Of a stretch of 32,186 nt of DNA, positions 6,590-27,935 are shown one piece after another. The position numbers and the translations under genes are program-made. This DNA is from Neoroseomonas rubea (GTDB lineage Bacteria > Pseudomonadota > Alphaproteobacteria > Acetobacterales > Acetobacteraceae), in contig NZ_JACADQ010000017.1 in the NCBI RefSeq assembly GCF_016106015.1, positions 1 to 32,186 on the forward strand, read 5' to 3'. Positions within the stretch are counted from its first letter, which is position 1. Every line of letters begins with the position of its first letter. The notes under the pieces are model-generated. The model made no database searches. It had not been told where the DNA came from and saw only the letters and a list, made by a program, of their open reading frames with translations.

Positions 6590-6610
6590 GAGGCTCATGC
6601 CCGGTCGACT

Positions 6611-7060: not shown

Positions 7061-7066
7061 GGGCTG

Positions 7067-7381: not shown

Positions 7382-7415
7382 GGATATCTCCGATCGTCAG
7401 TGTTCCTGGCGGGGG

Positions 7416-7445
7416 TCACGCCATGCCGAAGCCGGCATGGCGTGA
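7416..7445 (-). terminator. Perfect 13-base-pair hairpin between the SYLF and DUF883 genes
   Basis: TCACGCCATGCCG (7416-7428) and CGGCATGGCGTGA (7433-7445) pair perfectly around a four-base loop, beginning four bases past the SYLF stop on the minus strand. No T run follows. It may terminate, attenuate or stabilise transcript ends between the two genes. Confidence 0.6.
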
Positions 7446-7449
7446 ACGG

Positions 7450-9499: not shown

Positions 9500-10718
9500 G
9501 GATCGCCTCGACGGGGTCGAGCCGTGCCGCGCGCAGGGCGGGCGCCATCGCCGCGAGCACCCCGGTCAATGCCGCCACGACCGCCGCGATGACGAAGAGC
9601 TGCGGCTGGATCATCAGGGGAAACAGCGGGCTTCCATCGGCTTGGCGGACCGAGGCATGCCAGGCCACCAGCGCGCCGACGCCCGCGGCAGACCCGATCA
9701 GCGATCCGAGCAGGCCGAGCACGCCGCCCTGGATCAGGAAGACCCGCAGGATCTGCCCGCGCCGCGCGCCCATCGCGCGCAGGATGCCGATCTCGCGCGA
9801 ACGCTGAACGACCGAGACCACGAGCACGCTCGCGATGCCAAGCGCCACCGACAGGCCGACCGAGAGCCGGATCACGGTGTTGGACGTCTGCTGCGCGTTG
9901 ACCGCGGTGAAGAACTGCAGGTTCGTCCTGATCCAGCTGTCGGCGCGGATGCCCGTCATGCCATGCGCCAGTCGCGCCAGGATCTCCGCCGCATAGGGAT
10001 CGTGCAGCGTGACCTGCAGGCTCGTCACGCCGCCGGTGAGGCCGAGCAGGCTCTGCGCCGTGCGCAGGGCGACGAAGGTGCTGCGCTCGTTCACGCCGCG
10101 GTTGCCGAGGTCGAAGAGGCCCGTCACCGTCAGCGTCGCGTCGCGGCCCCTGGCCGTCGTCACCCGCAGCTTGTCGCCGACGCCCACGCCGAGTTCGACC
10201 GCGAGGTCGGTGCCGATGACGATGCCCTCGCTGGTCAACCTGGGCTGCCCTGCCACGATGCTGGCTGGCAGCTTGACGATGCGGAAGTAGCCTTCCGGCT
10301 CGACGCCGGTCAGCGTGATGGATCGGCTGGCTTCGCCGCGCACGGCCAGCGCGCCGCCGGCGGCGACCGGCGTCGCCACGGCAATCTCCGGCATGTCCCG
10401 CATCTGCCGCAACACGGTCTGCCACTGGTCGATGGAGCGGATGCGCTGCGACGGCCGCTGCACCACTGCATCCTGGATCACGCCTTCTGCGGCGCGGAGA
10501 GGCCGCGCGACCTCGTCCGGCGGCAGCAGGACGAGATGGGCCTGGGCGCTGAGGACGCGGTTGAGGAAGTTCGCCTGGATGCCGGTAAGGAGCGCCGACA
10601 TGAACACGATCACGGCCACACCCATGGAGACGCCGGCGAGGATGAAGATCGTCTGCATCCAGCCATCGCGCAGGAACCGGATGGCGGCGATCCATTCGAA
10701 GGGCAGCCAGCCTCTCAT
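9492..10718 (-). CDS. FtsX/LolCE-type ABC exporter permease
   Basis: A 408-residue permease with the FtsX/MacB layout. There is one transmembrane helix near residues 20-45 ([20 protein letters not shown]), a periplasmic MacB-like core domain of about 200 residues, and three C-terminal helices near 278-303, 325-350 and 370-392. The [20 protein letters not shown] motif contacts the ATPase, and the end DPVEAIRG is characteristic. The ATG at 10718 overlaps the adaptor's stop (ATGA). The frame remains open far upstream, but that stretch lies inside the adaptor gene and is a shadow. It forms a tripartite exporter with its neighbours, by analogy with MacAB or DevBCA. The outer-membrane partner is not in the window. 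Confidence 0.92.
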
Positions 10719-12085
10719 CGCGCCGCCTCGGGCCGGACCCTGCCGCCATCGGCGACCGCCACGCTGGACGGCACGACCAGGTCGCCTTCGCGCAACCCGT
10801 CCAGGATCTCGACCCGCTGCGGGCCGCGCAGGCCGATCGTGACGGTGCGGCGTCGTGCGCGCCCCTCCTCGATGCGCAGCACCCAGGGTGTCGGCCCCGC
10901 TGCGTCGCGCACGGCCGAGACCGGCAGGACGAGCGCATCCGCCCGTTCCGCCACGGCGATATCCACCGACACCGTCATGTCCTGGCGCAGATAGTCCGGC
11001 GGCGCGGGCACGCGCAGCTTGACCTCGACCGCGGCGCGATCCGGATCGACGGACGGGTTGATGTAGGCGAGTTCTGCGGGGAACCGCCGATTGGGGTAGG
11101 CATCCGCCGAGGCGACCGCCCGCTGGCCAATGGCGATGAGGCCGAGGTTCTTCTCGTCGATCTGCACCACGATCTCGATCTGCCCGATCGGCGACAGCAC
11201 CATGAGGACCTGGTTCGGCTGCACGACCCAGCCGCGCTCCACGTTGCGGGCGATGAGTGTGCCGGCTTCCAGCGCCCGGATCTGCGTGTAGTCGAGGCGA
11301 GAAAGCGCCACGAGGAGGCTCGCGCGCGCCTGGCGCAACGCGGCTTCGGCGGCGACGTGGTCGGTCCCTCCGGGGGCGTTGCCGGCGACCTGGGCTTGCG
11401 CGGCCCGCACCTGTGCCTGCGCGATGTTGAGGGCGCGCCGCGCATTGTCGAGCTGCGCCTGCGTCTCGAAGCCGCCTGAGCGCAGGCTCTCCGCCCGGGA
11501 GTATTGCTGCTGCGCGTTGAGCAGCGTCGACTGTGCCTGGCTCAGATTCTCCTGCGCGACGGGCAGCGTCACCTCGACGATCTGGCGCAGCCGGGCCGCC
11601 GCCTGGGCCGCCGCCGCTTCGGCCTGTTCGACGCTGGCGCGCAATTCGCTGTCCTCGAGCGTGACGAGAACCTGGCCAAGTGCGACCGCCTGGCCTTCCG
11701 TGACGGGAACGGAGGCGACGGTGCCAGTGATCTGGCTGCCGATGTTCACGCGGTGCGGCGTCGCGATCCGGCCGCTTGCAACAACGCTCTGCACCAACAC
11801 GCCGCGGACCACGGGTTGCGTCGTGACGATCGGTCCCAACAGCCAGGGGATCGCGAGGTAGAGACCCACGCCCAGCAGCGCCAGGACGGCAAGGATGCGC
11901 CAACGCCGACGCCACAGCAGCACAGCGGCGACTCTCGCGAGGCGAAGGGGCGCCACCACGAACGCCGTCGGCCGGGCGTCCAAGGGGCCGACCGCCGTGG
12001 CGGGTGCCGTCACCGCAGTTCGCGGGAGCGGGACGCCATCATGCTCCGAGGCCGGAGGATGCGGCGCTGAGTCGGACGGCATCAT
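10715..12085 (-). CDS. HlyD/MacA-type periplasmic adaptor subunit
   Basis: A 456-residue membrane fusion protein. A cytoplasmic Pro/Ala-rich tail of about 60 residues leads to one transmembrane anchor (about 63-83). A lipoyl-like half-motif follows (IGSQITGTVASVPVTEGQ, about 116-133), then a long Ala/Gln-rich coiled-coil hairpin (about 150-270) and beta-barrel and membrane-proximal domains to the C terminus. It links the inner-membrane permease to an outer-membrane channel. The ATG at 12085 has a GAGGAG ribosome site, and a second ATG follows immediately. The gene leads the exporter operon and is divergent from the XRE regulator at 12323. The cytoplasmic tail is longer than in typical MacA. 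Confidence 0.92.
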   Translation of the reverse strand: MMPSDSAPHPPASEHDGVPLPRTAVTAPATAVGPLDARPTAFVVAPLRLARVAAVLLWRRRWRILAVLALLGVGLYLAIPWLLGPIVTTQPVVRGVLVQSVVASGRIATPHRVNIGSQITGTVASVPVTEGQAVALGQVLVTLEDSELRASVEQAEAAAAQAAARLRQIVEVTLPVAQENLSQAQSTLLNAQQQYSRAESLRSGGFETQAQLDNARRALNIAQAQVRAAQAQVAGNAPGGTDHVAAEAALRQARASLLVALSRLDYTQIRALEAGTLIARNVERGWVVQPNQVLMVLSPIGQIEIVVQIDEKNLGLIAIGQRAVASADAYPNRRFPAELAYINPSVDPDRAAVEVKLRVPAPPDYLRQDMTVSVDIAVAERADALVLPVSAVRDAAGPTPWVLRIEEGRARRRTVTIGLRGPQRVEILDGLREGDLVVPSSVAVADGGRVRPEAAR

Positions 12086-14223: not shown

Positions 14224-17200
14224 ATGCCACGCACGCGTCGTCGCGTCGCCGCGGGCAAGCCCGCGCCCGGCCTGCGCGACGACATCCTCGTGGTGGGTAT
14301 CGGTGCTTCCGCCGGCGGCCTTGATGCGTGCCGCCGCCTGATCGAGGCGGTCGTGGACGGCAGCGGCATGGCGCTGATCCTCGTCCAGCATCTCGATCCG
14401 GACCACGAAAGCATGCTTGTGGATCTGCTCGCGACGCACACCGGACTCACCGTGTGCCAGGTCGTGGACGGGATGCCGATCGAGCGTGGCCATCTCTATG
14501 TCATCCCGCCGGGCACCTATCTTTCCGTGGGCAAGGGTGCGCTGCACCTGACGGAACCGGCGGCACGGCACGGCGCGAGGCTGCCTTTCGACTTCCTGCT
14601 CCACTCGCTGGCCGAGGAGATGGGACCGAGGGCCGCCTGCGTCGTCCTTTCGGGGACAGGATCGGATGGCAGCCTGGGGCTGAAGGCCGTGAAGCAGAAG
14701 GGCGGCCTGGTGATCGCGCAGGACCCCGAGGAAGCCGCCTATGACGGGATGCCGCGCAGCGCGATCACGACCGGCGCCGTCGATAGCGTGCTTCCCGCCG
14801 CGGACATTCCGAACGCGCTCATGAAGTATATCCAGCGCAAGGGCCCTGCGTCCGGCGCCAATGTCGCGCCACCGCCTGCCGGGGACGTGCTTCTGGCCAT
14901 CGTCGCCTTCCTCCATGAGACTACAAGCCACGACTTCCGGCTGTACAAGCCCGGCACGCTGCGCCGGCGGATCGAACGGCGCATGTCCGCCGCGGCCGTC
15001 GCGCCGACGGATATGCATCTCTATCTGGACAAGCTGCGGCACGACCCCGTCGAGGTCGAGGCGCTGGCCAAGGATCTCCTGATCCACGTGACAAGCTTCT
15101 TCCGGGACGCGGAGGTCTTCGATCTCCTCGCGGAGGTCGTCATCCCCGAACTGGTGGACTCAGCGGAGCCCGGCCGTCCGCTCCGCATCTGGGTTCCCGG
15201 CTGCAGCACCGGCGAGGAAGCGTATTCCCTCGCCATGCTGTTCCAGGAGCGGATTGCCGCGAAGGGGCGCGAGGTCAAGCTGCAGATCTTCGGATCGGAT
15301 GTCGATCCGGACGCCGTCATCGCCGCGCGGGATGGGCTCTATCCGCCGTCGATCAAGACGGATGTGACGCCCGAGCGCCTCGCGCGATTCTTCACGAAGG
15401 AGAGTGCGGGCTACCGCGTCTCGTCCGAACTGCGCGCCAGCGTGGTCTTCACGGTGCAGGACGTGCTGAACGATGCGCCCTTCTCCCGGCTCGACATGGT
15501 GTCGTGCCGCAACCTGCTCATCTATCTGAGCCCTGAGGCGCAATCGAAGGTGATCGCGCTGTTCCACTTCGCGCTGCGTCCTGGCGGCATCCTGCTGCTC
15601 GGCGGCGCGGAGACGATCGGCAGCGCGCCCGGGCGCTTCGAGGTGATCTCGAAGCCTGGCCGGATCTACCGCCATGTCGGCCGCAGCCGGCCGGGCGAGC
15701 TTGGCCTCATCTTCGGCGCCGGCAGTGTCGATCGTCCCGGCCGGCAGGCGGGCAAGGCCGCGAGCGCCGCGCGCGGCACCGTCTATGGCGAATTGTGCCG
15801 GCGGCTGGTGATGGACGCCTACGCGCCCGCGGCGGTGCTGGTCGATCAGAAGCAGGAATGCCTCTATTCGCTCGGCCCGACGGACCGGTTCCTCCGCGTG
15901 CCGCCGGGCGCGCCGACGCAGGACCTGCTCGCGATGGCGCCGCGCAGCGTGCGGAACAAACTTCGCGCGGCGATCCAGCGCGCGCTGCAGGAGAATGGTC
16001 GGGTTTCGCAGCCCGGCGGCCTGATCCGGCTGGATGGCCGGACCCTGTCTTTCTCCATCGACGTCCAGCCGGTGCTGAGCGAGGGCGAAAGGCTGCTCCT
16101 CATCTGCTTCGTGGAGGAGAGGGCCCCCGCCCCGCCGGCGAGCCGAATCGCCGCGCCCCGCGATGTCCCCCGCATCGCCGAGCTCGAGCAGGAGCTGGAT
16201 GCGACACGCACGGAACTCCAGGGCGCGATCCACAACCTCGAGATCGCCAATGAGGAGCAGAAGGCGATCAGCGAGGAGGCGCTCTCCGCGAGCGAGGAGT
16301 ACCAGTCGACGAATGAGGAATTGCTGACGTCGAAGGAGGAACTCCAGTCGCTGAACGAGGAGCTGACGGCGCTCAACACCCAGTTGCAGGAGACGCTGGA
16401 GCGGCAGCGCACGACGTCCAACGACCTGCAGAACGTCCTCTACAGCACCGACGTCGCCACGCTCTTCCTCGATACGGAGCTGCGGATCCGGTTCTTCACG
16501 CCGGCGACGAAGGATCTCGTCAGCGTCATTCCCGGCGATATCGGCCGCCCGCTCTCGGACCTCAACCTGCTCGCCTCGGACAGCGACCTCCTGGCCGATG
16601 CGCGGAAGGTCCTGCGGACACGCAAGCCGATCGAACGGGAGATCATGACGCGCGGGACGACCTGGTATTCGCGCCGGATCCTGCCCTACCGCACCCAGGA
16701 TGACGGGGTGGAAGGCGTCGTCATCACCTTCGTCGACATCACCGAGCGTCGCCTGGCTGCGCAGAGGCTCGAGGAAGCGAAGCGCCAGGCGGAATACGCC
16801 AACGGCGTGAAGTCGCGCTTCCTGGCGGCTGCAAGCCACGACCTGCGGCAGCCGCTGCAGACACTGACGCTGCTCCAGGGCCTGCTGACGAAGTCCGCGG
16901 AGGGCGACAAGACGCATGATCTCGTCATGCGCCTCGGTGAAACGCTCAGTGCCATGTCCGGGATGCTCAAAACGCTGCTCGACATCAACCAGATCGAGGC
17001 CGGCACCATCCGCCCCGAGATCGTCCGCTTTCCGGTCAACGACCTGCTGGACCGCCTCCGGGGTGAATTCGCCTACCATGCGGAGGCGCAGAGGCTCGGC
17101 TTCCGCGTCGTGCCCTGCGGCCTCGTCATCGAGAGCGACCCCCGGCTGCTCGAGCAGATCCTGCGCAACCTGCTGTCGAACGCGCTGAAATACACGCGGC

Positions 17201-17937
17201 GCGGCAAGGTCCTGCTCGGCTGCCGCAGGCAGGGGGGGCAGCTGCGCATCGAGGTCTGGGACACCGGCATCGGTATTCCGGACAGCGAGCGCCAGGCCGT
17301 CTTCGAGGAATATCATCAGCTCGGCAATCCGGCGCGCGAGCGCGGCCGGGGCCTCGGGCTCGGCCTGTCGATCGCGCGCCGCATGGCGGAGCTCCTGGGC
17401 CATCGAATCACCGTCCGGTCTTGGCCGGGCAGGGGCTCGGTCTTCGCCGTCGACCTGCCCCTGCCGTCCGGCAAGCCCGTCGCACCCCCCGATCGCGCAC
17501 CCGACGCGATGCCGGCCAGGCCGGTTGAACCCGCCGGCCGCAGCGGCGCCATCCTGGTCGTGGAGGATGATCCGGACCTGCGAGACGCGCTCAGGATCTT
17601 CCTGGAGGATGAGGGCCATCGCGCCATGACGGCGGCGGATGGCGTCATCGCACTCGACATGGTGGCGCAGGGCTTGATCCGGCCGGACCTTGTCCTCGCC
17701 GACTACAACCTGCCGCGCGGAATGACCGGGGTGGAGGTCGCCAGGACGCTGCGCGAGCGGCTGCGCAGCGAGGTGCCGGCCATCATCCTGACCGGCGACA
17801 TCTCGACCGCGACGCTGCGCGACATCGAGCTGCCGCGGTCGGTGCAGCTGCACAAGCCGGTGCGCCTCGAGGGTCTCGCGCGCAGCATCCTGGATCTCCT
17901 GGCGGCGCAGGACGAGAGCCCATCCCACGGCAGATGA
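14224..17937 (+). CDS. CheB-CheR-PAS-histidine kinase-receiver fusion protein
   Basis: A 1237-residue signalling protein. A CheB methylesterase domain (about 20-200) carries the likely triad S29 (GASAGG), H56 (QHLDPDH) and D148 (GTGSDGS). A CheR methyltransferase domain (about 215-480) has the S-adenosylmethionine site WVPGCSTGEEAYSLAM. A long Glu/Gln-rich coiled coil (about 655-735) and a PAS domain (about 735-850) follow. The HisKA domain has phosphoacceptor H872 (ASHDLRQPLQ), and the HATPase domain has NLLSNALKY and GLGLGLSIARRMAE. A C-terminal receiver has D1160 (LADYNLP). No transmembrane segment is seen, so it is cytoplasmic. No chemotaxis genes are nearby, so a non-chemotaxis signalling role is likely. 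The ribosome site is weak. Confidence 0.93.
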   Translation: MPRTRRRVAAGKPAPGLRDDILVVGIGASAGGLDACRRLIEAVVDGSGMALILVQHLDPDHESMLVDLLATHTGLTVCQVVDGMPIERGHLYVIPPGTYLSVGKGALHLTEPAARHGARLPFDFLLHSLAEEMGPRAACVVLSGTGSDGSLGLKAVKQKGGLVIAQDPEEAAYDGMPRSAITTGAVDSVLPAADIPNALMKYIQRKGPASGANVAPPPAGDVLLAIVAFLHETTSHDFRLYKPGTLRRRIERRMSAAAVAPTDMHLYLDKLRHDPVEVEALAKDLLIHVTSFFRDAEVFDLLAEVVIPELVDSAEPGRPLRIWVPGCSTGEEAYSLAMLFQERIAAKGREVKLQIFGSDVDPDAVIAARDGLYPPSIKTDVTPERLARFFTKESAGYRVSSELRASVVFTVQDVLNDAPFSRLDMVSCRNLLIYLSPEAQSKVIALFHFALRPGGILLLGGAETIGSAPGRFEVISKPGRIYRHVGRSRPGELGLIFGAGSVDRPGRQAGKAASAARGTVYGELCRRLVMDAYAPAAVLVDQKQECLYSLGPTDRFLRVPPGAPTQDLLAMAPRSVRNKLRAAIQRALQENGRVSQPGGLIRLDGRTLSFSIDVQPVLSEGERLLLICFVEERAPAPPASRIAAPRDVPRIAELEQELDATRTELQGAIHNLEIANEEQKAISEEALSASEEYQSTNEELLTSKEELQSLNEELTALNTQLQETLERQRTTSNDLQNVLYSTDVATLFLDTELRIRFFTPATKDLVSVIPGDIGRPLSDLNLLASDSDLLADARKVLRTRKPIEREIMTRGTTWYSRRILPYRTQDDGVEGVVITFVDITERRLAAQRLEEAKRQAEYANGVKSRFLAAASHDLRQPLQTLTLLQGLLTKSAEGDKTHDLVMRLGETLSAMSGMLKTLLDINQIEAGTIRPEIVRFPVNDLLDRLRGEFAYHAEAQRLGFRVVPCGLVIESDPRLLEQILRNLLSNALKYTRRGKVLLGCRRQGGQLRIEVWDTGIGIPDSERQAVFEEYHQLGNPARERGRGLGLGLSIARRMAELLGHRITVRSWPGRGSVFAVDLPLPSGKPVAPPDRAPDAMPARPVEPAGRSGAILVVEDDPDLRDALRIFLEDEGHRAMTAADGVIALDMVAQGLIRPDLVLADYNLPRGMTGVEVARTLRERLRSEVPAIILTGDISTATLRDIELPRSVQLHKPVRLEGLARSILDLLAAQDESPSHGR

Positions 17938-17950
17938 GGCGCCGCTAAGG

Positions 17951-19768
17951 TCAGCGCCCGTAGCCTTCGCGCAGCAGGTCGACGACGGGCAGCGGCCGGG
18001 CGCGCGGCGCCATCGCCGCCTGGCGCCGCGCATAGACCTCCTGCAGCAGCACTTCGCCATCGGCGGCACGCGTCAGCGTCAGGCGCCGGTTGAAGGTCTC
18101 CGCCGATCCCGGATGGCGCCCGACCAGGACGATGCCGGAACCCGGCAGCCGTTCCACCAGCAGTCCGAGCATGAGGTCGGCAGTGAGCGGGTCGAGCGCA
18201 TCCGTCGCGTCGCCGAGCACGATCCAGTCGGGACGCAGCAGGAGCAGCCGCGCGAAGGACAAGCATTGCAGCTCCGCCGCGCTCAGGTTGCGGGCCCAGT
18301 CGGACGCCTCGTCCAGGCGGTCGGACAGGTGCCCCAGGCCGACGCTGTCGAGCGCCGCCGCGAGGTCCGCATCCGTGGTCCGTGTCGTGCCTTCCGAGAA
18401 GGCGATGGCCCGGCGCAGCGTGCCCTCCGGCAGGAAGGGCCGCGGGCCGACGGCGATCATGTCCGCATCGGCCGGCAGGTCCACCCGGCCTCGCCCCCAG
18501 GGCCAGATTCCGGCGAGCACGCGGAACAGCGCGCCCGCCGCCTCCGGATCGCCATCCACCAGCACGTGCTCGCCCGGCGCCACTTCGAGCGTGAGCCCTG
18601 ACAGCATGGCCGTCCCGTCGGGTGCAGCGACCCAGAGATCCCGGACGCCGAGCCGGGAGGTCGAGGCGCGGTCGAGGTTGATCGCCGTCTCCCCGGCACG
18701 TGCCGCCTCCAGAGCGACGACGCGGATCGCCTCGTCGAGCAGCAGGACCCGCTCCACCGAGGCGCGCCATTCCGCGATGCGTGCCAGGTTGTCGACCGGC
18801 CAGGAGAGCGCCGCCGTGACCTGCTGGAAGGCCTGCCCCGACTGCATCAGCCTGCCTAGGGACAGCGCGCCTTCGAGGAACCGCGGCGTGCCCACCAGGA
18901 TGGGCAGCACGGCGGCCAGGGCCACGTAGCCGGAGGAGAAGGCGAGGAGGCGCGCGAGCCCCATGGACTGGTCGCGCCAGGATTGCGCGATTGCCTCGAA
19001 GGTGGAGGACAGGCGACCCCGCTCCATCGCCTCGCCGCGCGCGATCGCGATCGGCTCCGCGTTCTCATGCGCGCGCATCAGGCCGAAGCGAAAATTTGCT
19101 TCCTTGGTCTGCCGCGTGTCGGTGGCGCGGACGAGCGGCCGCCCCAGGAAATAGGCTATGACCGCGCCCATGCCGGCGTAGCCGAAGGCCAGCGCGACGA
19201 GATGCCCGGGCATGCCGACGCCCAGCACGCTGATCCAGCCGGACAGCGACCAGAGGATGCCGACGAAGGTAATGAGCAGGAGGACGCAGTAGAACAGGCT
19301 GCTGGCGAGATCGATCGCGGCCTCCGTCGCGATGCGGATATCCTCGGCGATGCGCCCGTCGGGATTGGCGTGATCGCCCGGGATCAGGTTGGCCTGGTAG
19401 TGCCTTGCATCCGCCATCCAGTCGCCGATGACCCGCGCCGTCAGCCATCGCCGCCAGTCGAGCTGCAGGTGACGGTGAATGACCATGTGCGCCGTATTGG
19501 CCGACATGACCCCAAGGATGATCATCGCGAAGATGCCGATCTGCGCCATGGCGCTCTCGGTCGAGCGCCGTTCCAGCGCGTCGAACAGGTCGGCGCTCCA
19601 GATATTGAGGCGGATCGCCAGCGCCACCTGCACGATGCCGAGCACCGCGAGCGAGAGCGTGAGCAGGCGCGGCCGCCACTGCGCCCTGCCCGTCCAGTAG
19701 GGGCCCGACAGGTTCACGAAGTCGCGGAAGAACTGCTGCGGATGGCTAGGTCCGCCAATGCCGCTCAT
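17951..19768 (-). CDS. SbmA/BacA/ABCD-like transporter with a degenerate ATPase domain
   Basis: A 605-residue protein with an ABC_membrane_2 transmembrane domain (about 15-290, as in SbmA/BacA, YddA and peroxisomal ABCD transporters) and a C-terminal domain folded like an ABC ATPase (about 370-570). Its catalytic motifs are all altered: the Walker A loop is DGDPEAAGA, with A411 in place of lysine; the Q-loop glutamine is P442; the signature LSGGE is LSAAE (495-499); the Walker B aspartate is G519 and the catalytic Glu is D520; the switch histidine is R551. The frame is intact and flanking residues (LAGIWP, GTLRRAI, ATDALD) are well kept, so this is a non-catalytic domain and not a random wreck. 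ATP-independent, perhaps proton-driven transport as in SbmA is inference. It is convergent with the hybrid kinase, 13 bases apart. Confidence 0.88.
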   Translation of the reverse strand: MSGIGGPSHPQQFFRDFVNLSGPYWTGRAQWRPRLLTLSLAVLGIVQVALAIRLNIWSADLFDALERRSTESAMAQIGIFAMIILGVMSANTAHMVIHRHLQLDWRRWLTARVIGDWMADARHYQANLIPGDHANPDGRIAEDIRIATEAAIDLASSLFYCVLLLITFVGILWSLSGWISVLGVGMPGHLVALAFGYAGMGAVIAYFLGRPLVRATDTRQTKEANFRFGLMRAHENAEPIAIARGEAMERGRLSSTFEAIAQSWRDQSMGLARLLAFSSGYVALAAVLPILVGTPRFLEGALSLGRLMQSGQAFQQVTAALSWPVDNLARIAEWRASVERVLLLDEAIRVVALEAARAGETAINLDRASTSRLGVRDLWVAAPDGTAMLSGLTLEVAPGEHVLVDGDPEAAGALFRVLAGIWPWGRGRVDLPADADMIAVGPRPFLPEGTLRRAIAFSEGTTRTTDADLAAALDSVGLGHLSDRLDEASDWARNLSAAELQCLSFARLLLLRPDWIVLGDATDALDPLTADLMLGLLVERLPGSGIVLVGRHPGSAETFNRRLTLTRAADGEVLLQEVYARRQAAMAPRARPLPVVDLLREGYGR

Positions 19769-19870: not shown

Positions 19871-20572
19871 TCACAGGATCGTGCCGAACATCATGCCGAT
19901 GCCCGCGGTGACCGCCATGGCCAACGCCCCCCAGAAGGTGACGCGCAGTGTCGCGCGCAGCACGCCCGCGCCACCGGCCCAGGCGGCGACGGCGCCGAGC
20001 AGCGCGAGGAAGACCAACGACGCCGCGGAGACGATGGCAACCAGCGCACCGGGCGGCGACATCACCACCATCAACAGGGGCATGGCCGCGCCGACCGCGA
20101 AGGTCGCGGCCGACGTCATCGCCGCCTGGACCGGCCGTGCCGTCATCATCTCGGAGATGCCGAGTTCGTCGCGCGCATGCGCGCCGAGCGCATCATGCGC
20201 CATCAATTGCCGGGCGACCTCCCGCGCCACGGACGGCTCGACGCCGCGCCCCGCGTAGATCGCGGAGAGTTCGTCGAGTTCCGCATCCGTGCCCGCCCCG
20301 AGTTCCCGACGCTCGCGCGCGAGATCGGCCTGCTCGGTGTCGGACTGCGAACTGACCGAGACGTATTCCCCGGCTGCCATGGACATGGCGCCGGCGACCA
20401 GGCCCGCGACACCGGCGATCAGCACGTCGCTCCGCGCTGCGGCGGCCGCCGCCACGCCGACGATCAGGCTGGCCGTGGAGACGATGCCGTCATTGGCGCC
20501 GAGAACGGCCGCCCGCAGCCAGCCGATCCGGTCCACGAGGTGCCGTTCCGGATGCACGCGAAGTCGGCTCAT
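19871..20572 (-). CDS. VIT/CCC1-family membrane transporter
   Basis: A 233-residue protein of the VIT1/CCC1 family, which moves iron or manganese across membranes. It has the hallmark LGANDGIVSTASLIVGV in the first helix and AGAMSMAAGEYVSVSSQSD in the second. A charged cytosolic metal-binding stretch with Glu-rich helices follows (about 75-140). Three more hydrophobic segments lie in the C-terminal half. The start at 20572 has a GAGGAAGG ribosome site. The frame is open further upstream, but that part covers the neighbouring small gene. It may store or detoxify iron under stress, fitting the stress genes around it. That role is inference from context. Confidence 0.9.
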   Translation of the reverse strand: MSRLRVHPERHLVDRIGWLRAAVLGANDGIVSTASLIVGVAAAAAARSDVLIAGVAGLVAGAMSMAAGEYVSVSSQSDTEQADLARERRELGAGTDAELDELSAIYAGRGVEPSVAREVARQLMAHDALGAHARDELGISEMMTARPVQAAMTSAATFAVGAAMPLLMVVMSPPGALVAIVSAASLVFLALLGAVAAWAGGAGVLRATLRVTFWGALAMAVTAGIGMMFGTIL

Positions 20573-21425: not shown

Positions 21426-21875
21426 TCAGCGCGTGCTGCGCGGGTTGCGGGCGGGCGCGCCCGCCGGGCAGGGGAAGTTCGCCTGCGCCCAGCGCAGGAG
21501 ACCATCGAGCGCCGGCTCGTTGCCGTAGCGCGGGTTCTCCCGGGTCCAGGCGGCGAAGGCGACGCCGGACTGCGCGACCGTCGGGCCCGGCACCGGCACG
21601 CAGAAGAGCGGCCTGGCCGGTCCGCCCCGCGGATAGAGCAGCGTGTGGTACTGCCCGAAGCTGGTGAGGAAGCCCTGACAGTAGGCGATGGCCTCGAGCC
21701 GTGGCACGCCGCTCCAGGTGGGATCGCAGATGGCCGCAAGGTCATTAGCCGTCTGCGCCTGGGTGACGATGGCCGGAGTCCCCGGCGCCGGCGTGCCCTG
21801 GGCCATGGCGCGTGGCGCCAGGGCGGCTGTGCCTGACAGCGCGACAGCCAGTGCAAGTGCAGTCACTGCTCGCAT
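21426..21875 (-). CDS. Rap1a/Tai-family exported protein
   Basis: A 149-residue exported protein. A signal peptide ends near AMAQ (about residue 26), and a Rap1a/Tai-like domain follows (about 43-137) with the family pattern of four cysteines: C50 and C66 (AYCQGFLTSF), C92 (LFCVPVPGPT) and C136 (NFPC). These could form two disulfides in the periplasm. The stretch FAAWTRENPRYGNEPALDGL is also typical. Rap1a and Tai were first described as immunity proteins against type VI secreted amidases. No such toxin or secretion gene is in the window, and many alphaproteobacteria have stand-alone members, so an immunity role is unproven. A GGAGGAG ribosome site precedes the ATG at 21875. Confidence 0.8.
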   Translation of the reverse strand: MRAVTALALAVALSGTAALAPRAMAQGTPAPGTPAIVTQAQTANDLAAICDPTWSGVPRLEAIAYCQGFLTSFGQYHTLLYPRGGPARPLFCVPVPGPTVAQSGVAFAAWTRENPRYGNEPALDGLLRWAQANFPCPAGAPARNPRSTR

Positions 21876-22475: not shown

Positions 22476-22542
22476 AGGTTGTCGTCGAATTTCTTCGTTC
22501 CGCCCGGACACATGCTCGTGGCGGGCGACGCGCCATGGCGAC

Positions 22543-22572
22543 GGGCGGCGCGGGATCGTCTCCGCGCCGCCC
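22543..22572 (-). terminator. Hairpin after the PRC-barrel gene
   Basis: GGGCGGCGCGG (22543-22553) and CCGCGCCGCCC (22562-22572) form a perfect 11-base-pair stem with an eight-base loop, 22 bases past the stop at 22595 on the minus strand. It is a likely terminator, though without a T run. Confidence 0.6.
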
Positions 22573-22594
22573 GCCCTTCACCTGGCGACCAGGT

Positions 22595-23239
22595 TCACCG
22601 CGCCTGGAGCTCGGAGTACTGGAAGGCGGGACGGGTCTGCAGGATGTCCTTCGTCGCGCCGGGCAGCACAAGGTGTTCGTTGCCGGCGTTCCAGCGGAGA
22701 TCCGCCAGGGGCACGGTGATCAGCCGCCCACCCATGCCGAGGAACCCGCCGACCTGCACGACGGCCAGCGGATAGCCGGTGGCAGGCATGGCCGGTGCCG
22801 CTGCGCTCGGGGCCGTCGCGGGTGCGGGTGCGGGTGCGGGTGTCGGCGGGGTCGCGGGCGTCGCAGCCGTCGGTGCCGCGGCACCCTGGGATGCGCTCGG
22901 CGCCGGCATCGGCGCCGGCGTTACCGCCACCCGCGTCGTCGGGGCGCTGGCGGAGGGGAACAGCAGAATGTCTTCCACCTCGCCGATCTTCTCCTCGCGC
23001 TCATTGTAGATCGTGCTGCCGATCAGCTGGCTCAGCCGAGGGCGCAGCATGACCGTGGTGCCGGCCGTCGCGGTGAAGAGCGGAACGAGCGCCGGACGCG
23101 TCGCAGCGGGACTGCTGGCGGCGGGCGGGCTCGTCGGCGTCGGGCTCGTCTGCGCGAGCGCGAGCATCGGCACGACGATCAGGCCGGCCGCGAGCGTCAT
23201 CGGGATCATGGGAAGTCGGAAATCATGAAGCGAGTTCAT
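22595..23239 (-). CDS. Exported PRC-barrel protein interrupted by a Pro/Ala-rich insert
   Basis: A 214-residue protein with a signal peptide (hydrophobic core ending near ALAQ, about residue 30). The first half of a PRC-barrel is seen (LSQLIGSTIYNEREEKIGEV, about 69-88). A run of about 60 residues made almost only of Ala, Pro, Thr and Ser follows (about 97-155). The second half (YPLAVVQVGGFLGMGGRLIT and VPLADLRW) comes after it. PRC-barrel proteins of this exported type are common in alphaproteobacterial stress and envelope clusters; function unknown. The insert contains a six-base tandem repeat (22818-22841). A second possible start, MIPMTLAAG, lies 11 codons in. A candidate stress promoter lies about 65 bases upstream and a terminator follows. 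Confidence 0.82.
   Translation of the reverse strand: MNSLHDFRLPMIPMTLAAGLIVVPMLALAQTSPTPTSPPAASSPAATRPALVPLFTATAGTTVMLRPRLSQLIGSTIYNEREEKIGEVEDILLFPSASAPTTRVAVTPAPMPAPSASQGAAAPTAATPATPPTPAPAPAPATAPSAAAPAMPATGYPLAVVQVGGFLGMGGRLITVPLADLRWNAGNEHLVLPGATKDILQTRPAFQYSELQAR
22818..22841. repeat. Four tandem GCGGGT hexamers inside the PRC-barrel gene
   Basis: GCGGGT repeats four times without error at 22818-22841. On the coding strand this encodes alternating Pro-Ala pairs. Because the unit is six bases, gain or loss of copies would lengthen or shorten the linker without breaking the frame. Confidence 0.85.
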
Positions 23240-23304
23240 GGTCGATTCCTTCTTGTGCGTTGCGGGGGGAAGCGCACTGGAGAACCTGCAGTGCCGTTCG
23301 CGAC

Positions 23305-23329
23305 AACGCCGCGCAGGTCGGGGAGTTGC
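23305..23329 (-). promoter_or_regulatory. Candidate EcfG-type stress promoter for the PRC-barrel gene
   Basis: Minus strand: GCAAC (23329-23325), a 16-base spacer, CGTT (23308-23305), about 65 bases before the start at 23239. The DUF1328 terminator lies immediately upstream, so this is a clean start-of-transcript position. Confidence 0.5.
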
Positions 23330-23330
23330 G

Positions 23331-23363
23331 CCGGCCCCGCCGCGAGGGCGTTGGCGGGGCCGG
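23331..23363 (-). terminator. Hairpin after the DUF1328 gene
   Basis: CCGGCCCCGCC (23331-23341) pairs perfectly with GGCGGGGCCGG (23353-23363) around an 11-base loop, 26 bases past the stop at 23390 on the minus strand. It separates DUF1328 transcription from the PRC-barrel promoter. Confidence 0.6.
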
Positions 23364-23389
23364 CGCGGCCGGTCAGCGCGATGGCGGGA

Positions 23390-23554
23390 TCAACTCATCC
23401 AACCGCGACCGGCAACCAGCGAAATGATGAAGAGGACGAGGAACACCGCGAACAGGATCTTCGCGACGCCGCTCGCGGTCGATGCGATGCCGCCGAAGCC
23501 GAGTACGCCCGCGACGAGTGCGACGACCAGGAAGATCAAGGTCCAGTAGAGCAT
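23390..23554 (-). CDS. DUF1328 (YtjA-type) small membrane protein
   Basis: A 54-residue protein matching DUF1328 (PF07043) over its full length. The start [20 protein letters not shown], the GGIAS turn and the second helix [17 protein letters not shown] are all typical. Two transmembrane helices leave almost nothing outside the inner membrane. Members are widespread in proteobacteria and often stress-induced; the molecular role is unknown. The ATG at 23554 follows GAGGAGG at good spacing, so the in-frame ATG at 23578 is unlikely to be used. It lies between CsbD and PRC-barrel genes, each separated by a hairpin. I see no EcfG-like site upstream. Confidence 0.9.
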
Positions 23555-23622
23555 GGTGCCCTCCTCGCGCTGCGCCACGTGACGGGAACGCCCGGCGGTG
23601 GATGGCTGCCAGGATCGCGAGG

Positions 23623-23648
23623 CGCCGCCGGGGCGTGGCCCGGCGGCG
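23623..23648 (-). terminator. Hairpin after csbD-like gene
   Basis: CGCCGCCGGG (23623-23632) pairs perfectly with CCCGGCGGCG (23639-23648) around a six-base loop, nine bases past the stop at 23657 on the minus strand. It is a probable terminator without a T run. Confidence 0.6.
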
Positions 23649-23656
23649 TCTTCAGG

Positions 23657-23860
23657 TCAGGAAGAAAGGCCCTTCTCCCAGGCCTTCACCTGATCCTCCG
23701 CAAGCTCCTTGGCGACGCCGTAGCGCTCCTGGATGCGGCCGATGAGCTGGTCACGCTTGCCTTCGACGACAGCAAGGTCGTCATCGGTCAGCTTGCCCCA
23801 CTTCTCGCGGACCTTTCCGTTCATCTGCTTCCAGTTGCCGGCGATCTGGTCCCAGTTCAT
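23657..23860 (-). CDS. CsbD-family stress protein
   Basis: A 67-residue protein matching the CsbD family (PF05532) from end to end: MNWDQIAGNWKQMNGKVREK, then WGKLTDDDL and GKRDQLIGRIQERYG. It is small, charged and predicted soluble. CsbD is a general stress protein under sigma-B in Bacillus, and its relatives belong to EcfG-type stress regulons in alphaproteobacteria. The biochemical role is unknown. The ATG at 23860 is preceded by AAGGAGATAGCG. A candidate stress promoter lies about 48 bases upstream, squeezed between this gene and the phyR stop. Confidence 0.92.
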   Translation of the reverse strand: MNWDQIAGNWKQMNGKVREKWGKLTDDDLAVVEGKRDQLIGRIQERYGVAKELAEDQVKAWEKGLSS

Positions 23861-23907
23861 CGCTATCTCCTTGTGCCGATTGCGCGCCCATGGGGCGGCA
23901 GTGGAGA

Positions 23908-23932
23908 AACGCGCGGCGCGCCTGGGGGTTGC
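23908..23932 (-). promoter_or_regulatory. Candidate EcfG-type stress promoter for the csbD-like gene
   Basis: Minus strand: GCAAC (23932-23928), a 16-base spacer, CGTT (23911-23908), 48 bases before the start at 23860. The target is a family expected to be in the general stress regulon, which makes this the best-supported of the eight sites. Confidence 0.55.
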
Positions 23933-23938
23933 CGTCCG

Positions 23939-24658
23939 TCAAGCGATCGGCGGCCGGCCTGCCGTTATGGCCTGGTAGGTTGCGACGGCGAGCGCCATCG
24001 GATCGAAGGGCTTGGTGATGAGGAAGGCCGGTTCCGGGCGTTCGGCCGTCAGCAGGCGCTCGGGGTAGGCAGTTACGAAGATGACCGGCACGGGCATCGT
24101 CCGCGCGATGCGCGCGACGGCGGAGATGCCGTCGCCGCCGCGTCCGAGATTGATGTCGGCGACGATCAGGCCGGGATGATGCTGTTCCGAAAGAGCCACG
24201 GCGGCTGCCTCCGTCGCCGCCACGCCGACGACGCGATGGCCGCACGCCTCGACCAGGCGCCGGATGTCCATCGCGATCACGGGCTCGTCCTCGATGACGA
24301 CGACGTCGGTGACCGAGGCGGCGCGCAGCGCGGACCGCGCAACCTCGATCTCGAACCCGGCCTCCTCCGCGCCGAGGCCGACGACCGCGGCCGCTTCGTT
24401 GAGGCGAAGATCCTCGAGCGACGTCAGCAGCAGCAGCTGCCGCTGCCGTGGCGTGAGGAGCGACGAATCCCGCGGTGCAGGCGCGGCGTGCGTGATCGCC
24501 GCGTAGAGCGCGAGGCGCGGCGCCATGTCCGGCAGTCCGGCGCGCAGCACGTCCGCGACCAGCCTGTCGCCATCCGCCTGCGAGCCCGTCAGTGCGCGTG
24601 CGTACCGTCTTGCGTAGGGCAGCGCGTGCAGCAGATCCGAATCGGCATGGTCGGTCAC
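23939..24658 (-). CDS. phyR: PhyR-type anti-anti-sigma response regulator of the general stress response
   Basis: A 239-residue protein with the PhyR architecture: an N-terminal sigma-like domain (about 5-112, including the region-4-like LTPRQRQLLLLTSLEDLRLN) and a C-terminal receiver (about 117-235). The receiver has acidic E123 and D124, phosphoacceptor D168 (LIVADINLG), T196 and K216 (LITKPFDP). When phosphorylated, PhyR binds the anti-sigma factor NepR and so frees EcfG. The start is a GTG at 24658 preceded by AGGGGGA at good spacing. It is divergent from the first ECF sigma gene, with only 66 bases between the starts. The nepR and kinase genes lie 1.3 kb away on the other strand. All key residues are present. 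Confidence 0.93.
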   Translation of the reverse strand: MTDHADSDLLHALPYARRYARALTGSQADGDRLVADVLRAGLPDMAPRLALYAAITHAAPAPRDSSLLTPRQRQLLLLTSLEDLRLNEAAAVVGLGAEEAGFEIEVARSALRAASVTDVVVIEDEPVIAMDIRRLVEACGHRVVGVAATEAAAVALSEQHHPGLIVADINLGRGGDGISAVARIARTMPVPVIFVTAYPERLLTAERPEPAFLITKPFDPMALAVATYQAITAGRPPIA

Positions 24659-24724
24659 CGTGTCGTCCCCCTATGCTCTTCTGCTAATGTTTCGCCGGAT
24701 GAAGCCGATGTGCCGGCGTTTCGC

Positions 24725-25216
24725 ATGACGGGCGCGCTGTCCGACTTCCGGAAGGGCCTTGCCGCACTGCTGCCGCAGCTGCGCGCCTTCGCGCGGTTCC
24801 TGGCCAGGGATCCGGGGCGCGCCGACGATCTGGTGCAGGACGCCATCCTGCGGGCGATGACGGAGGAGGCGCAATGGGAACCGGGCACCGACCTGCGCGC
24901 CTGGGTCTTCCGCATCCTGCGCAACGGCTTCCTGGGGCAGGTGCGCCGGGGGGGCGCTGAACGCCGCGCGCTGGAACGCCTTGACCGCGGCGCCTCCGCG
25001 GCGCCGGCGCAGCTGGCCGCGGCCGAGTTGCACGAACTCGATCGCGCGCTCGATCGCCTGTCCGTCGTCCAGCGCGAAGCGCTGGTGCTCGTCGCCGCCC
25101 TCGGCTTCTCGATCGAGGAGGCGGCCGGGATCTGTGGCGTACCCGCGGGCACCGTGAAGGCGCGCGTCTCCCGCGCGAGGGCGGCGCTCGCGCAACGTTT
25201 CGGCGATAGGGGCTGA
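24725..25216 (+). CDS. ecfG: EcfG-like ECF sigma factor (first of two)
   Basis: A 163-residue sigma factor with region 2 (about 15-78: ADDLVQDAILRAM, EPGTDLRAWVFRILRN) and region 4 (about 105-155: LSVVQREALVLVAALGFSIE, EEAAGICGVPAGTVKARVSRAR). The region-4 wording is close to that of known EcfG proteins, so this is the better EcfG candidate of the pair. The ATG at 24725 lacks a clear ribosome site. A GTG at 24710 in the same frame is an alternative. The frame is open far upstream only because it runs antisense to other genes. I found no EcfG-type motif in the 66-base gap to phyR. Confidence 0.87.
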   Translation: MTGALSDFRKGLAALLPQLRAFARFLARDPGRADDLVQDAILRAMTEEAQWEPGTDLRAWVFRILRNGFLGQVRRGGAERRALERLDRGASAAPAQLAAAELHELDRALDRLSVVQREALVLVAALGFSIEEAAGICGVPAGTVKARVSRARAALAQRFGDRG

Positions 25217-25322
25217 ACGACGCCCCAGGTCGCGGATCGGTGGTGGCTGCATCGGGACGTGAATGCGCGGAGCCTCTCATCGGTTGCAGGTCGTTCCACG
25301 TGCGGCATCCGATATGCCCCAT

Positions 25323-25348
25323 GCAACCATTTCCTGCCCTCATGCGTT
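25323..25348 (+). promoter_or_regulatory. Candidate EcfG-type stress promoter at the second sigma gene
   Basis: GCAAC (25323-25327), a 17-base spacer and CGTT (25345-25348). Transcription would begin close to the ATG at 25357, giving an almost leaderless mRNA. Self-activation of ecfG genes is common in this pathway. The position overlaps possible upstream starts, so site and start choice depend on each other. Confidence 0.35.
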
Positions 25349-25356
25349 CGGTCCGC

Positions 25357-26004
25357 ATGCCACTCGATGATGCCGCCCGCGCACCCGACCATGGGAATGT
25401 CCACGCCGCCGAGGCGGAGCCGCACGCGTCCTTCGGCGACGCTCTCGTCGCGCTGCTGCCGCGGCTGCGGGTCCAGGCGCTGGCGCTGACGCGCAACCGC
25501 GCCGATGCCGACGACCTCGTGCAGGCGGCGGTCACCAACGCGCTGGCCGCGAAGGCGAACTTCATCCCCGGCACGAATCTCGGCGCGTGGCTCTACCGTA
25601 TCCTGCGCAACCGCTTCCTGTCGGATCGCAGGCGGGCCCGGGAGACGGTCGAGCTCGACGACGCGCCCGCCGCTTCACTCGCGAGCCTGCCCCGCCAGGA
25701 GGGCAATCTCGCCCTCAAGGAACTGCGCAGGCACCTTGGACGCCTGCCGCCCGACCAGCGTGCCGCGCTGATCATGGTCTCGGTCCAGGGCCTGAGCTAC
25801 CAGGAGGTGGCGGACGCGCTGGGCTGCCCCGTCGGCACGGCGAAATGCCGCGTGTTCCGCGCGCGGCGGCAGCTCGAGACCTGGCTGCTCGGGGCCGACG
25901 ACCAGCCGCGCGGCAAGGATTCGGCGGTTGCGGCTGGTGCGGGGCCGACGACGACGGGTAGGCTCATGCGAGGCGCGGGCGGTTCGAGGCCCTCGGCCAC
26001 GTAG
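25357..26004 (+). CDS. Second EcfG-like ECF sigma factor, upstream of nepR
   Basis: From the ATG at 25357 this is a 215-residue sigma factor, with region 2 at about 29-94 (ADADDLVQAAVTNALAAKA, IPGTNLGAWLYRILRNRFLS) and region 4 at about 122-176 (LPPDQRAALIMVSVQGLSYQ, EVADALGCPVGTAKCRVFRA). In-frame ATGs at 25321 and 25342 are alternatives; none has a good ribosome site. A Gly/Ala/Thr-rich tail of about 35 residues after region 4 is unusual for EcfG proteins. The sequence differs clearly from the first sigma, including TAKCRVFRARR where the first has TVKARVSRARA, so it is an old paralog. It ends six bases before nepR, so this sigma and NepR are probably co-expressed. Confidence 0.85.
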   Translation: MPLDDAARAPDHGNVHAAEAEPHASFGDALVALLPRLRVQALALTRNRADADDLVQAAVTNALAAKANFIPGTNLGAWLYRILRNRFLSDRRRARETVELDDAPAASLASLPRQEGNLALKELRRHLGRLPPDQRAALIMVSVQGLSYQEVADALGCPVGTAKCRVFRARRQLETWLLGADDQPRGKDSAVAAGAGPTTTGRLMRGAGGSRPSAT

Positions 26005-26010
26005 GACGTC

Positions 26011-26217
26011 ATGGCAGAGAGCGACGACCCCGAGCAGAAACCCGAGGCCAAGATGCCGGACGCCGACGCCCGCGACCGCAAGCGCAGGAAGGGCACGCCG
26101 GACGCGGCCTTCGATGTCTGGCTGCGCCGCGGGCTGCACGCCATGTTCGACGAGGTGGCGCAGGAACCCATCCCGGAGGAGTTGATCCGCCTCATTGAAG
26201 CGGACCGGCGGAAATGA
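26011..26217 (+). CDS. nepR: NepR-type anti-sigma factor
   Basis: A 68-residue protein with the NepR signature. An unstructured, charged N-terminal part (1-30) is followed by helix 1 (about 33-50: AAFDVWLRRGLHAMFDEVA), the linker EPIPEE and helix 2 (about 55-65: ELIRLIEADRR). NepR binds and blocks the EcfG sigma factor until phosphorylated PhyR takes it away. It lies six bases after the second sigma gene and its TGA overlaps the kinase ATG (ATGA at 26214-26217), so translation of sigma, anti-sigma and kinase is probably coupled. The small size and low overall conservation make NepR hard to find by search, but position and motif agree here. Confidence 0.9.
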   Translation: MAESDDPEQKPEAKMPDADARDRKRRKGTPDAAFDVWLRRGLHAMFDEVAQEPIPEELIRLIEADRRK

Positions 26218-27935
26218 CGCATGGCGGCCCGATCGAGGCCGCCCGACCGCCTGGCCTTCGTCGCCTGTTGACGGGTGTCCGTGCCCGGCTGCTGATCCTG
26301 GTGGGCGCGGCGATGGTGCCCGTCATCGGCATCGCCTGCGCGCAGGCTTGGCACGACCACGGGCAGGACCTCGCGGCGGCGAGGCGGGTGGTGCAGGCGT
26401 TACAGGAACAGGCCGTCGCATACTATCGCGCCGAGTTCGACCTGATCGAGGAGATGCTGGTCTCCCTCACCGCGGACGTTGCGGACCTTCCGCCGGAGGC
26501 GTGCGCTGCCGCGCTGCGCGCCGCTCAGGCACTGTTCCCGCGGCGGATCGCAGATGTGTGGATGCTCGATCCCGACGGGCGGCTGCGCTGCAGCGCATTG
26601 CCGGCGGCGCAGCGCGGGCCCCTTGGCGCCAACCTGCTGCCCCTGCATGTCGAAGGCCGGCTCACGCTGGCTAGCTTCGCGGCGGATACCGCCCCGGGCG
26701 ATGCCGTTGTCCCGGCGGTCATGCCCATCCTGGCCGACGACGGCACGCCGCGCGCGGCGATCGGTGCCGCCATCAGGCTTGTCCACGTCGTCCCGATCGA
26801 CACATCGCCGCCGCGTGCCGACGACCACCACGCCTGGCTCATCGACCGCAACGGCGCGACCCTCGCCCTGACCGCGGCGGCCGAGGCGGAGCTGCCCCGT
26901 GCTGTGCCGCCGGTCGGTCGCGTCGAGCAGTTCGAGGGCGCTGCGCGGTCCGGCGCAACCCACGCATGGTCGATCGGAACCGTTCGGCCCGGCCTGCGCC
27001 TGATGATCGGCGTGCCGATGGACGGCGCGCGAAGCGCGGCGCGCGCGGCGCTGCAATGGCGGCTGGTCGAGATCGCCGCCTTCGTGCTGGCCTGCCTCAC
27101 GGCGGTCATGCTTGGCGTGGAACTCAGCGTCGCTCGGCCCCTGCGGCGCCTCGCGGGCGCGCTGCGTGGCTGGTCGCCACGCGAGCCCTATGCCGCCATC
27201 AGCGGCAGCCACGACCCGTCGGAGATGAAGGACCTCGACACCGCGCTGCTGGCCGCCAGCGGGGCGATCGCCCAGCGCGAGGATGCGCTGCGGGCCGCGC
27301 TGAAGCAGCGCGACCTCGCGATCGAGGAAATGCACCACCGCGTCCATAACAACCTCCAGATCGTCGCCTCGCTGCTCAGCATGCAGGCGGACAACTCGCG
27401 GCAGGCCGAGGTGAAGGCCGAACTGGCGCTCACACGGCACCGGGTCCGCGCCCTCGCGACCCTCTATCGCCACCTGTCGCGTGCGTCGCAGGCGGAACGG
27501 ATCAGGCTGCAGCCGTTCGTCGAGGAGCTGTGCCATCAGCTCAGCGAGCATGCCGGCGTCTCACGCTGCGGGAAGGTGACGATGGTGGTCGAGGTCGAGG
27601 ACATCGAACTGGATGCCGACCATGCCGACTCGCTCACGCTCCTGATCACGGAGGCGGTCAGCAACGCGATCCAGCACGCCTTTCCGGACGGAGCATCCGG
27701 CACCATCCGGGTGTCGCTGCGACGTCACGGCGAGAACGCGGAGCTCACCGTCGCCGATGACGGCATCGGCCTGCCGACGGATGTCGATCGCGCGGACGCG
27801 CTTGGACTGAACCTGATCCGGGCCTTCGCGTCGCATCTTGGCGGAACGGCCGTGATCACGGGCGATGGCGGGACGAGGATCGGCGTGACCTTCCCCCTGC
27901 GACGCGCGCCCTGCGTTCCCGCGCAGGATGCCTGA
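26214..27935 (+). CDS. HisKA_2-type membrane sensor kinase, probable PhyR kinase
   Basis: A 573-residue sensor kinase. A transmembrane helix (about 25-45), a periplasmic sensor domain of about 235 residues (Cache-like by layout) and a second helix (about 283-305) are followed by a short linker. The HisKA_2 domain has EMHHRVHNNLQIVASLLSMQ, with phosphoacceptor H375 (or adjacent H374), and the HATPase domain has LLITEAVSNAIQHAF and VADDGIGLP. HisKA_2/HWE kinases next to nepR/ecfG typically phosphorylate PhyR, as PhyK and PhyT do. It overlaps nepR by four bases. The sensed signal is unknown, and the sensor domain has no motif I recognise. Confidence 0.9.
   Translation: MTHGGPIEAARPPGLRRLLTGVRARLLILVGAAMVPVIGIACAQAWHDHGQDLAAARRVVQALQEQAVAYYRAEFDLIEEMLVSLTADVADLPPEACAAALRAAQALFPRRIADVWMLDPDGRLRCSALPAAQRGPLGANLLPLHVEGRLTLASFAADTAPGDAVVPAVMPILADDGTPRAAIGAAIRLVHVVPIDTSPPRADDHHAWLIDRNGATLALTAAAEAELPRAVPPVGRVEQFEGAARSGATHAWSIGTVRPGLRLMIGVPMDGARSAARAALQWRLVEIAAFVLACLTAVMLGVELSVARPLRRLAGALRGWSPREPYAAISGSHDPSEMKDLDTALLAASGAIAQREDALRAALKQRDLAIEEMHHRVHNNLQIVASLLSMQADNSRQAEVKAELALTRHRVRALATLYRHLSRASQAERIRLQPFVEELCHQLSEHAGVSRCGKVTMVVEVEDIELDADHADSLTLLITEAVSNAIQHAFPDGASGTIRVSLRRHGENAELTVADDGIGLPTDVDRADALGLNLIRAFASHLGGTAVITGDGGTRIGVTFPLRRAPCVPAQDA

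Follow-up and report, generated by a model that had tools for sequence, protein, structure and literature searches.

The gene under study lies on the minus strand of the window, by which we mean the whole stretch of 32,186 nucleotides analysed here (positions 1 to 32,186 of contig NZ_JACADQ010000017.1, Neoroseomonas rubea, assembly GCF_016106015.1). It occupies positions 17951..19768 and, as the original prediction had noted, its frame is of full length, with an ATG start and 605 codons without internal stops. The protein consists of an ABCD/SbmA-type membrane domain (TMD) and a catalytically dead nucleotide-binding domain (NBD). The TMD covers about residues 20-345 (18734..19711, minus strand, bases converted by hand from residues). 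It was delimited with Pfam, in which the protein is a member of both ABC_membrane_2 (PF06472, residues 29-266, 139.6 bits, 1.7e-40, gathering score 24.4) and SbmA_BacA (PF05992, residues 45-340, 59.6 bits, 4.6e-16, gathering score 24). The pseudo-NBD was located at about residues 372-565 (18074..18655, minus) by alignment and by a model of residues 365-605. It gives no match to the Pfam family ABC_tran at 1e-3; the intact relative L145 matches that family at 1.8e-17. The protein is not an SbmA equivalog either, as it scores 36.3 bits with the NCBIfam SbmA model against a cut-off of 492, below the 111.8 bits of an intact relative from the same genome.

Upstream of the transporter, on the same strand, a VIT-family membrane protein is encoded at 19871..20572, with 102 bp between its end and the start of the transporter; the gene start at 20572 is a chosen codon, the longest frame beginning at 20740. 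The two genes may be co-transcribed. The other side is adjoined by a frame for a 1237-aa fusion of CheB, CheR, PAS, histidine kinase and receiver domains (14224-17937, plus). The window further contains a small protein that begins like a signal peptide and has a domain of the Rap1a immunity type (21426-21875, minus) and, at 22535-27935 (plus), sigma factor domains, one of them PhyR-type, that end a long, mostly low-complexity frame, together with a HisKA_2 sensor kinase. The latter region hints at a locus for the general stress response; an EcfG-type promoter pattern found 0 matches in the window, with 0.52 expected by chance. At 29645-31359 (plus) an APH-type kinase is followed by a MobA-like nucleotidyltransferase, a pair that we take to resemble the AmgK/MurU cell-wall recycling pair.

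In the window protein, six NBD positions no longer have their usual residue: Lys in Walker A, Gln in the Q-loop, the second Gly of the signature, Asp in Walker B, the catalytic Glu and the His of the switch. With all six lost, it does not have the motif set of a functional ABC protein. In the alignment, the degenerate Walker A reads GDPEAAGALFR (residues 406-416, 18521..18553, minus), with a gap at the Lys and one residue short with respect to the GESGTGKSTLFR of intact relatives. The Q-loop Gln is replaced by P442 and the LSxGE signature by LSAAE (residues 495-499, 18272..18286, minus); the D-E pair of Walker B and catalytic Glu has become G519-D520 within GDAT (residues 519-522, 18203..18214, minus), and the switch His is R551 within GRH (residues 550-552, 18113..18121, minus). 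All the losses listed in the original prediction are present, although one needs rewording: the Lys has not simply been swapped for A411, since the loop is one codon shorter.

For comparison, 68 rows without the Walker A Lys (dead) were aligned with 54 rows that have it (intact). As this Lys was the sorting criterion, the informative part is the common gap alone: the Walker A loop is one residue short in 68/68 dead and 0/54 intact rows, the conserved Gly-to-Leu stretch having 8 residues in the former and 9 in the latter, which is one codon fewer. Among the dead rows the Walker B Asp is kept in 2/68, the Q-loop Gln and the second signature Gly in 5/68 each, the catalytic Glu in 10/68 and the switch His in 13/68, and all six catalytic positions are gone in 41 of the 68; each of the six is present in 54/54 intact rows. 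Normal ATP binding is very improbable for the dead proteins, and the single motifs remaining in some rows might still permit residual nucleotide binding there.

At E 1e-5, three members of the family are encoded in the window genome: the gene itself, a paralogue on a separate contig (62% identity), which is equally dead, and the relative C117 (38% identity), whose motifs are intact. Among 59 relatives searched, orthologues (group A, 74-90% identity) and paralogues (group B, 60-63%) recur, and Walker A is dead in every row that extends into the NBD, 12/12 in group A and 12/12 in group B. The motif losses are neither chance nor recent, because they recur in orthologues of 74-90% identity and in the 62% paralogue of the same genome. 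Searches at the level of the family (397 genomes) and of the class (385 genomes) provided more dead members, with identities between 76% and about 41%; for the family, 21 newly returned and 20 further loci were read among the matches listed, and for the class, 10 of 14 loci from other families are dead, across six family codes, and 4 are intact. Six plasmid records were read of 174 matched: all five from Azospirillum are dead and the one from Microvirga is intact. Among the 40 matches listed in a search of the phylum (398 genomes), 37 are intact and 3 dead, two of these from the window genome and one from G460, of the same class. No dead member from outside Alphaproteobacteria appears among those 40 matches, which extend to 1e-105 and include five from other classes, all intact. 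The dead clade is present in Acetobacteraceae, Azospirillum and further alphaproteobacterial families.

Some loci have particular arrangements. L155 carries two dead transporters nearby on one strand (6129-7859 and 9110-10801), with a convergent gene for a GH1 beta-glucosidase next to them. One genome, of N. oryzicola, holds two near-identical group A copies (L034 and L035), each with a VIT gene. In L205, a full gene copy is closely followed by a second stretch (747-1475) with 65% identity to the pseudo-NBD (query 357-599). The proteins of L116 and L118-L121, from the window's family, are dead, with Walker B and switch regions that are barely recognisable.

For estimating the constraint on the dead NBD, dN/dS was calculated by the Nei-Gojobori method for pairs with a TMD dS of 0.02-0.9, group A being represented by 23 chosen rows. 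The median NBD values are 0.26 in group A (125 pairs) and 0.32 in group B (66 pairs), compared to 0.15 (214 pairs) and 0.37 (138 pairs) in the intact groups C and D. The membrane domain of the dead proteins is strongly conserved, with a dN/dS of 0.18. Relaxed selection on the dead NBD was also considered and left no clear signal: the NBD-to-TMD divergence ratio of the dead proteins, 1.29, falls between the 0.85 and 1.68 of the intact groups. Many non-catalytic NBD columns conserved in both intact groups are retained in more than 85% of 52 dead rows. The AlphaFold model of residues 365-605 (pLDDT 73, pTM 0.72) fits best the NBD of ABCD1, with a Z of 20.6 and an rmsd of 2.4 over 204 residues. 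Moreover, E246, located in the TM4-TM5 loop that, from the topology, should presumably face the NBD, is found in 68/68 dead and 54/54 intact rows, and its conservation fits a continued contact between TMD and NBD. The single frame, the modelled fold and this conserved Glu all indicate a folded NBD joined to the TMD. Judged from the codon ratios and the model, the dead NBD is under purifying selection and its fold is retained.

The original prediction of a retained non-catalytic domain is well supported by these data, that is, the group A dN/dS, the modelled fold and the ortholog alignment that it had proposed, in which the same replacements are largely conserved. Close orthologues with intact motifs and a high dN/dS, which would speak for recent decay, were looked for and not found. 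One protein with all six catalytic positions lost might be taken for a decaying pseudogene or a sequencing artefact, but we regard this as vanishingly improbable in view of the full-length frames in many genomes, the common one-codon deletion and dN/dS values well below 1.

The order of the losses was approached with trees built on membrane-domain columns alone, the wider one rooted on YddA. Both trees gave long-branch warnings, and their rows were thinned to 75 of 103 and 75 of 123. In the first, 44 dead rows form one clade (100/100), and in the wider one 51 dead rows do so (97/82, 98% of 200 bootstraps). Among the intact rows, L145 and L147 come closest to the dead clade, L146 falling outside both. 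L129 and L131, which form the earliest branch of the dead clade, retain the His-Arg-Pro switch and a QQRL stretch past the signature, so the P-loop would have been lost in the common ancestor, whereas switch and signature eroded later, and completely in the window protein. The place of the early loss of the Walker B Asp in this sequence of events is less clear, as L114 and L116, which are inner dead rows, show Asp in that column. Most likely, the ATPase motor was broken once in a distant ancestor and was then kept dead across many related bacteria. The original prediction had also suggested that the window protein could be an intermediate form. By descent it is not an intermediate of SbmA, since the dead clade falls among intact ABC proteins, apart from SbmA, whose branch in the first tree is very long.

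A dead half-transporter could still be driven by a partner, as in heterodimeric type IV exporters, if an intact ABC half supplied the ATP hydrolysis. Candidates exist, since the window genome has its intact relative C117 and five of the 12 genomes searched for PF06472 also have an intact-motif relative (L213-L217). Nevertheless, the dead gene is the sole PF06472 match in five of these 12 genomes (G583, G456, G679, G101 and G105), of 97-100% completeness, the other seven having two or three matches each, so in those five there is no intact family member to borrow. An intact relative beside the dead gene occurs in 0/59 flanks, in which the only second matches are the dead tandem copy of L155 and the NBD fragment of L205. 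By the composite-site logic of ABC dimers, neither site of a mixed dimer would be complete, because the dead half is without Walker A and usually without the signature Gly. We therefore find a heterodimer with an intact half quite unlikely. Two related candidates were rejected. An intact partner of the same family is not general, given the sole PF06472 proteins, and an obligate heterodimer of the two dead paralogues is at odds with several genomes of the genus, where A and B are found separately. Nothing supports a partner that belongs to a more remote ABC family.

The membrane domain also carries marks of the dead clade. R99 and Q267 are present in 68/68 dead rows and G138 in 65/68, against 2/54 intact rows in each case, which are L145 and L147; as these three residues also occur in the two intact proteins, they predate the ATPase loss. 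P324 (66/68 dead rows), H94 (61/68) and H189 (57/68) occur in 0/54 intact rows. In alignments with SbmA, which are of low identity, W323, adjacent to P324, aligns with Tyr368 of SbmA, and this tyrosine is described in PMC13316013 as an internal gate at the kink of TM6. Going by this position, P324 may fix the TM6 kink. The full-length AlphaFold model, with a pLDDT of 47 from an alignment of 9 rows, is too poor for the geometry of P324, H94 and R99.

Those residues would suit an independently evolved proton-driven carrier that works by an SbmA-like mechanism with the NBD still attached. The membrane domain belongs to the same fold family, as seen in the PF05992 match, and besides the new polar or charged H94, H189 and R99 and the proline at the TM6 gate position, part of the glutamate ladder of SbmA is present: equivalents of E193 and E276 in 52/52 dead rows and of E378 in 37/52. 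The complete ladder (E193, E203, E269, E276, E287 and E378) is not found, though. The equivalents of E203 and E269 are absent in the dead rows, the window protein having I and T there, and the E287 column is not securely alignable. The remaining Glu are largely common to intact ATP-type relatives, as in groups C and D E203 and E269 are missing too, E276 is invariant and the E193 position is either E or D. The ladder being incomplete much as in these relatives, the sequence leaves proton coupling neither shown nor excluded. R99, moreover, is older than the ATPase loss, and the window protein resembles the NCBIfam SbmA model less than the intact relative of its own genome does. We think that a proton drive of the window protein, as proposed in the original prediction, is possible, and regard the SbmA-like carrier as a doubtful variant of an ATP-independent transporter, within which it is a sub-case.

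Gene neighbours give another view of the function. The flanks of 59 dead loci (58 distinct, since L090 and L197 are the same DNA) were compared with those of 20 intact ones, contig ends cutting some of them. A GH1 beta-glucosidase gene adjoins the transporter in 14/58 distinct dead loci versus 0/20 intact, and all 14 belong to the 23 loci outside groups A and B. Within groups A and B it is beside the transporter in 0/35 distinct loci, and no GH1 gene was found in the window genome. Fisher's test gives 1.1e-5 for 14/23 vs 0/20 and 0.016 for 14/59, where one locus is counted twice, and both values overstate independence because the 23 loci include sister genomes. Two of the adjoining GH1 proteins were tested and both are above the NCBIfam BGL cut-off. 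The two genes share a strand in five loci and converge in nine, a mixed orientation which indicates that the adjacency survived rearrangement. In eight genomes (G456, G583, G679, G510, G632, G598, G361 and G101) the adjoining gene is the sole GH1 of the genome. The GH1 genes of the three genomes with near intact relatives are located elsewhere, and G105 has none. Of the five dead Azospirillum records read, three have GH1 directly upstream, followed further out by an alpha-galactosidase, and two have GH1 no more than 5 kb away. The flanks L161-L163, L191 and L192, from the set of L116 and L118-L121, have no adjoining GH1; their relative L117 (flank L190) has one.

A signal peptide is not evident in 6/7 GH1 proteins checked by eye, and the N-terminus of L153 is long and may come from a wrong start. 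GH1-linked dead members plausibly import beta-glucosides or glucosylated compounds. Neither the first dead lineage to split off (L129 and L131, flanks L165 and L193) nor the nearest intact relatives (L186-L188) have an adjoining GH1, so the linkage probably postdates the death of the motor and cannot be called ancestral. For the window protein itself, a peptide cargo would be a guess. The VIT-family gene lies upstream on the transporter strand in 8/58 distinct dead loci, window included, versus 0/20 intact ones, and this linkage is kept in only part of the close group.

The signalling genes around the window gene, namely the CheB-CheR-PAS-kinase-receiver fusion, the sigma factor region and the HisKA_2 kinase, could lead one to think of a membrane sensor or assembly platform that does not transport, its pseudo-NBD binding a ligand or a partner. 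Yet frames related to the large kinase fusion are near the transporter at some close loci and missing at others, and strong conservation of the membrane domain would hardly be expected. Import fits better with the linkage of distant relatives to a glycosidase without evident signal peptide. We consider a non-transporting role unlikely.

Several known systems can be compared with the dead clade. The closest solved relative by sequence is Rv1819c (6tqe; E 1.2e-53, residues 66-565). The BclA/YddA/Rv1819c proteins share with the window protein the two-domain layout, the PF06472/PF05992 membrane domain and the NBD fold, and they are the top match by sequence and with Foldseek. However, the aligned rows of Rv1819c and YddA have canonical motifs, whereas all six catalytic residues are lost here. 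Human ABCD1, ABCD3 and ABCD4, which are catalytically competent, give sequence matches over much of the length, and the NBD of ABCD1 is the best fit of the model. Exporters with one degenerate site, such as TAP, CydDC and MRP1-like proteins, likewise retain an NBD with lost catalytic residues, but they keep Walker A and pair the degenerate site with a canonical one. In the dead clade both sites would be dead if the protein is a homodimer. SbmA/BacA (SLiPT) has a related membrane domain and, like the dead proteins, presumably makes no use of ATP, but it is without an NBD, which the window protein has. Transport by BclA needs ATP hydrolysis, according to PMC12003926, and PMC13316013 describes SbmA as having no NBD, no coupling helices and a ladder of six glutamates. 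Titles and abstract openings in the literature gave no description of a dead-NBD clade in the SbmA/ABCD family. A survey from 2025 that deals with SbmA/BacA and BclA (PMC12003926) has none of the words 'degenerate', 'Acetobacter' and 'Roseomonas' in its main text, and the trees of that work and of PMC13316013 may hold unremarked members.

Taking all these elements together, we think it reasonably probable that the window protein, with its ABCD/SbmA fold, transports independently of ATP, the folded pseudo-ATPase likely clamping a homodimer that works by alternating access without hydrolysis. Its ancestor would have been a full-length ABC half-transporter in Alphaproteobacteria. The membrane domain changes R99, G138 and Q267 would have come first, the one-codon deletion would then have removed the Walker A Lys, and the remaining catalytic residues would have eroded afterwards. 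The pair of NBDs would most likely serve as a structural clamp, joining the halves of the homodimer through the retained TMD-NBD contacts. Transport would proceed down the substrate gradient or be coupled to another gradient, for example of an ion. For many lineages beyond the close group of the window protein, the beta-glucoside or glucosylated cargo would plausibly be split in the cytoplasm by the neighbouring GH1. Homodimer, alternating access, cargo and energy source are what we infer from the pattern as a whole. A precedent for the principle is a D-loop mutant of TAP, which according to PMC10960864 behaves as a facilitator uncoupled from ATP hydrolysis, letting peptides pass down their gradient. 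A bolder proposal, which we put forward as tentative, is that the clade made a second, independent passage from ABC protein to secondary carrier, in which the NBD, given up by SbmA, was kept and became the dimer clamp, H94, H189, R99 and the proline at the TM6 gate took over gradient coupling, and the protein was recruited early as an importer of beta-glucosides together with a cytoplasmic GH1.

Some practical consequences follow. The records of Azospirillum label dead proteins as 'ABC transporter ATP-binding protein/permease', and caution is advisable with this kind of annotation. Regarding the cargo, the GH1 linkage indicates the first substrate class to try. The route from an ABC protein to the proton-driven SbmA is unsettled; PMC13316013 offers, as a speculative view, that SbmA derives from a full-length YddA-like ancestor whose membrane domain parted from the NBD. 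The dead clade reveals that the motor can die first and yet be kept. L145 and L147, with intact motifs and with R99, G138 and Q267 already there, are a good 'before' reference. Living relatives represent three points of this course: L145 and L147 are near the stage preceding the loss, L129 and L131 belong to the dead branch that split off first, and the window protein is far advanced. This makes the order of events accessible to experiment. In our opinion, nature offers in the dead clade a form half-way between transporters driven by ATP and those driven by gradients.
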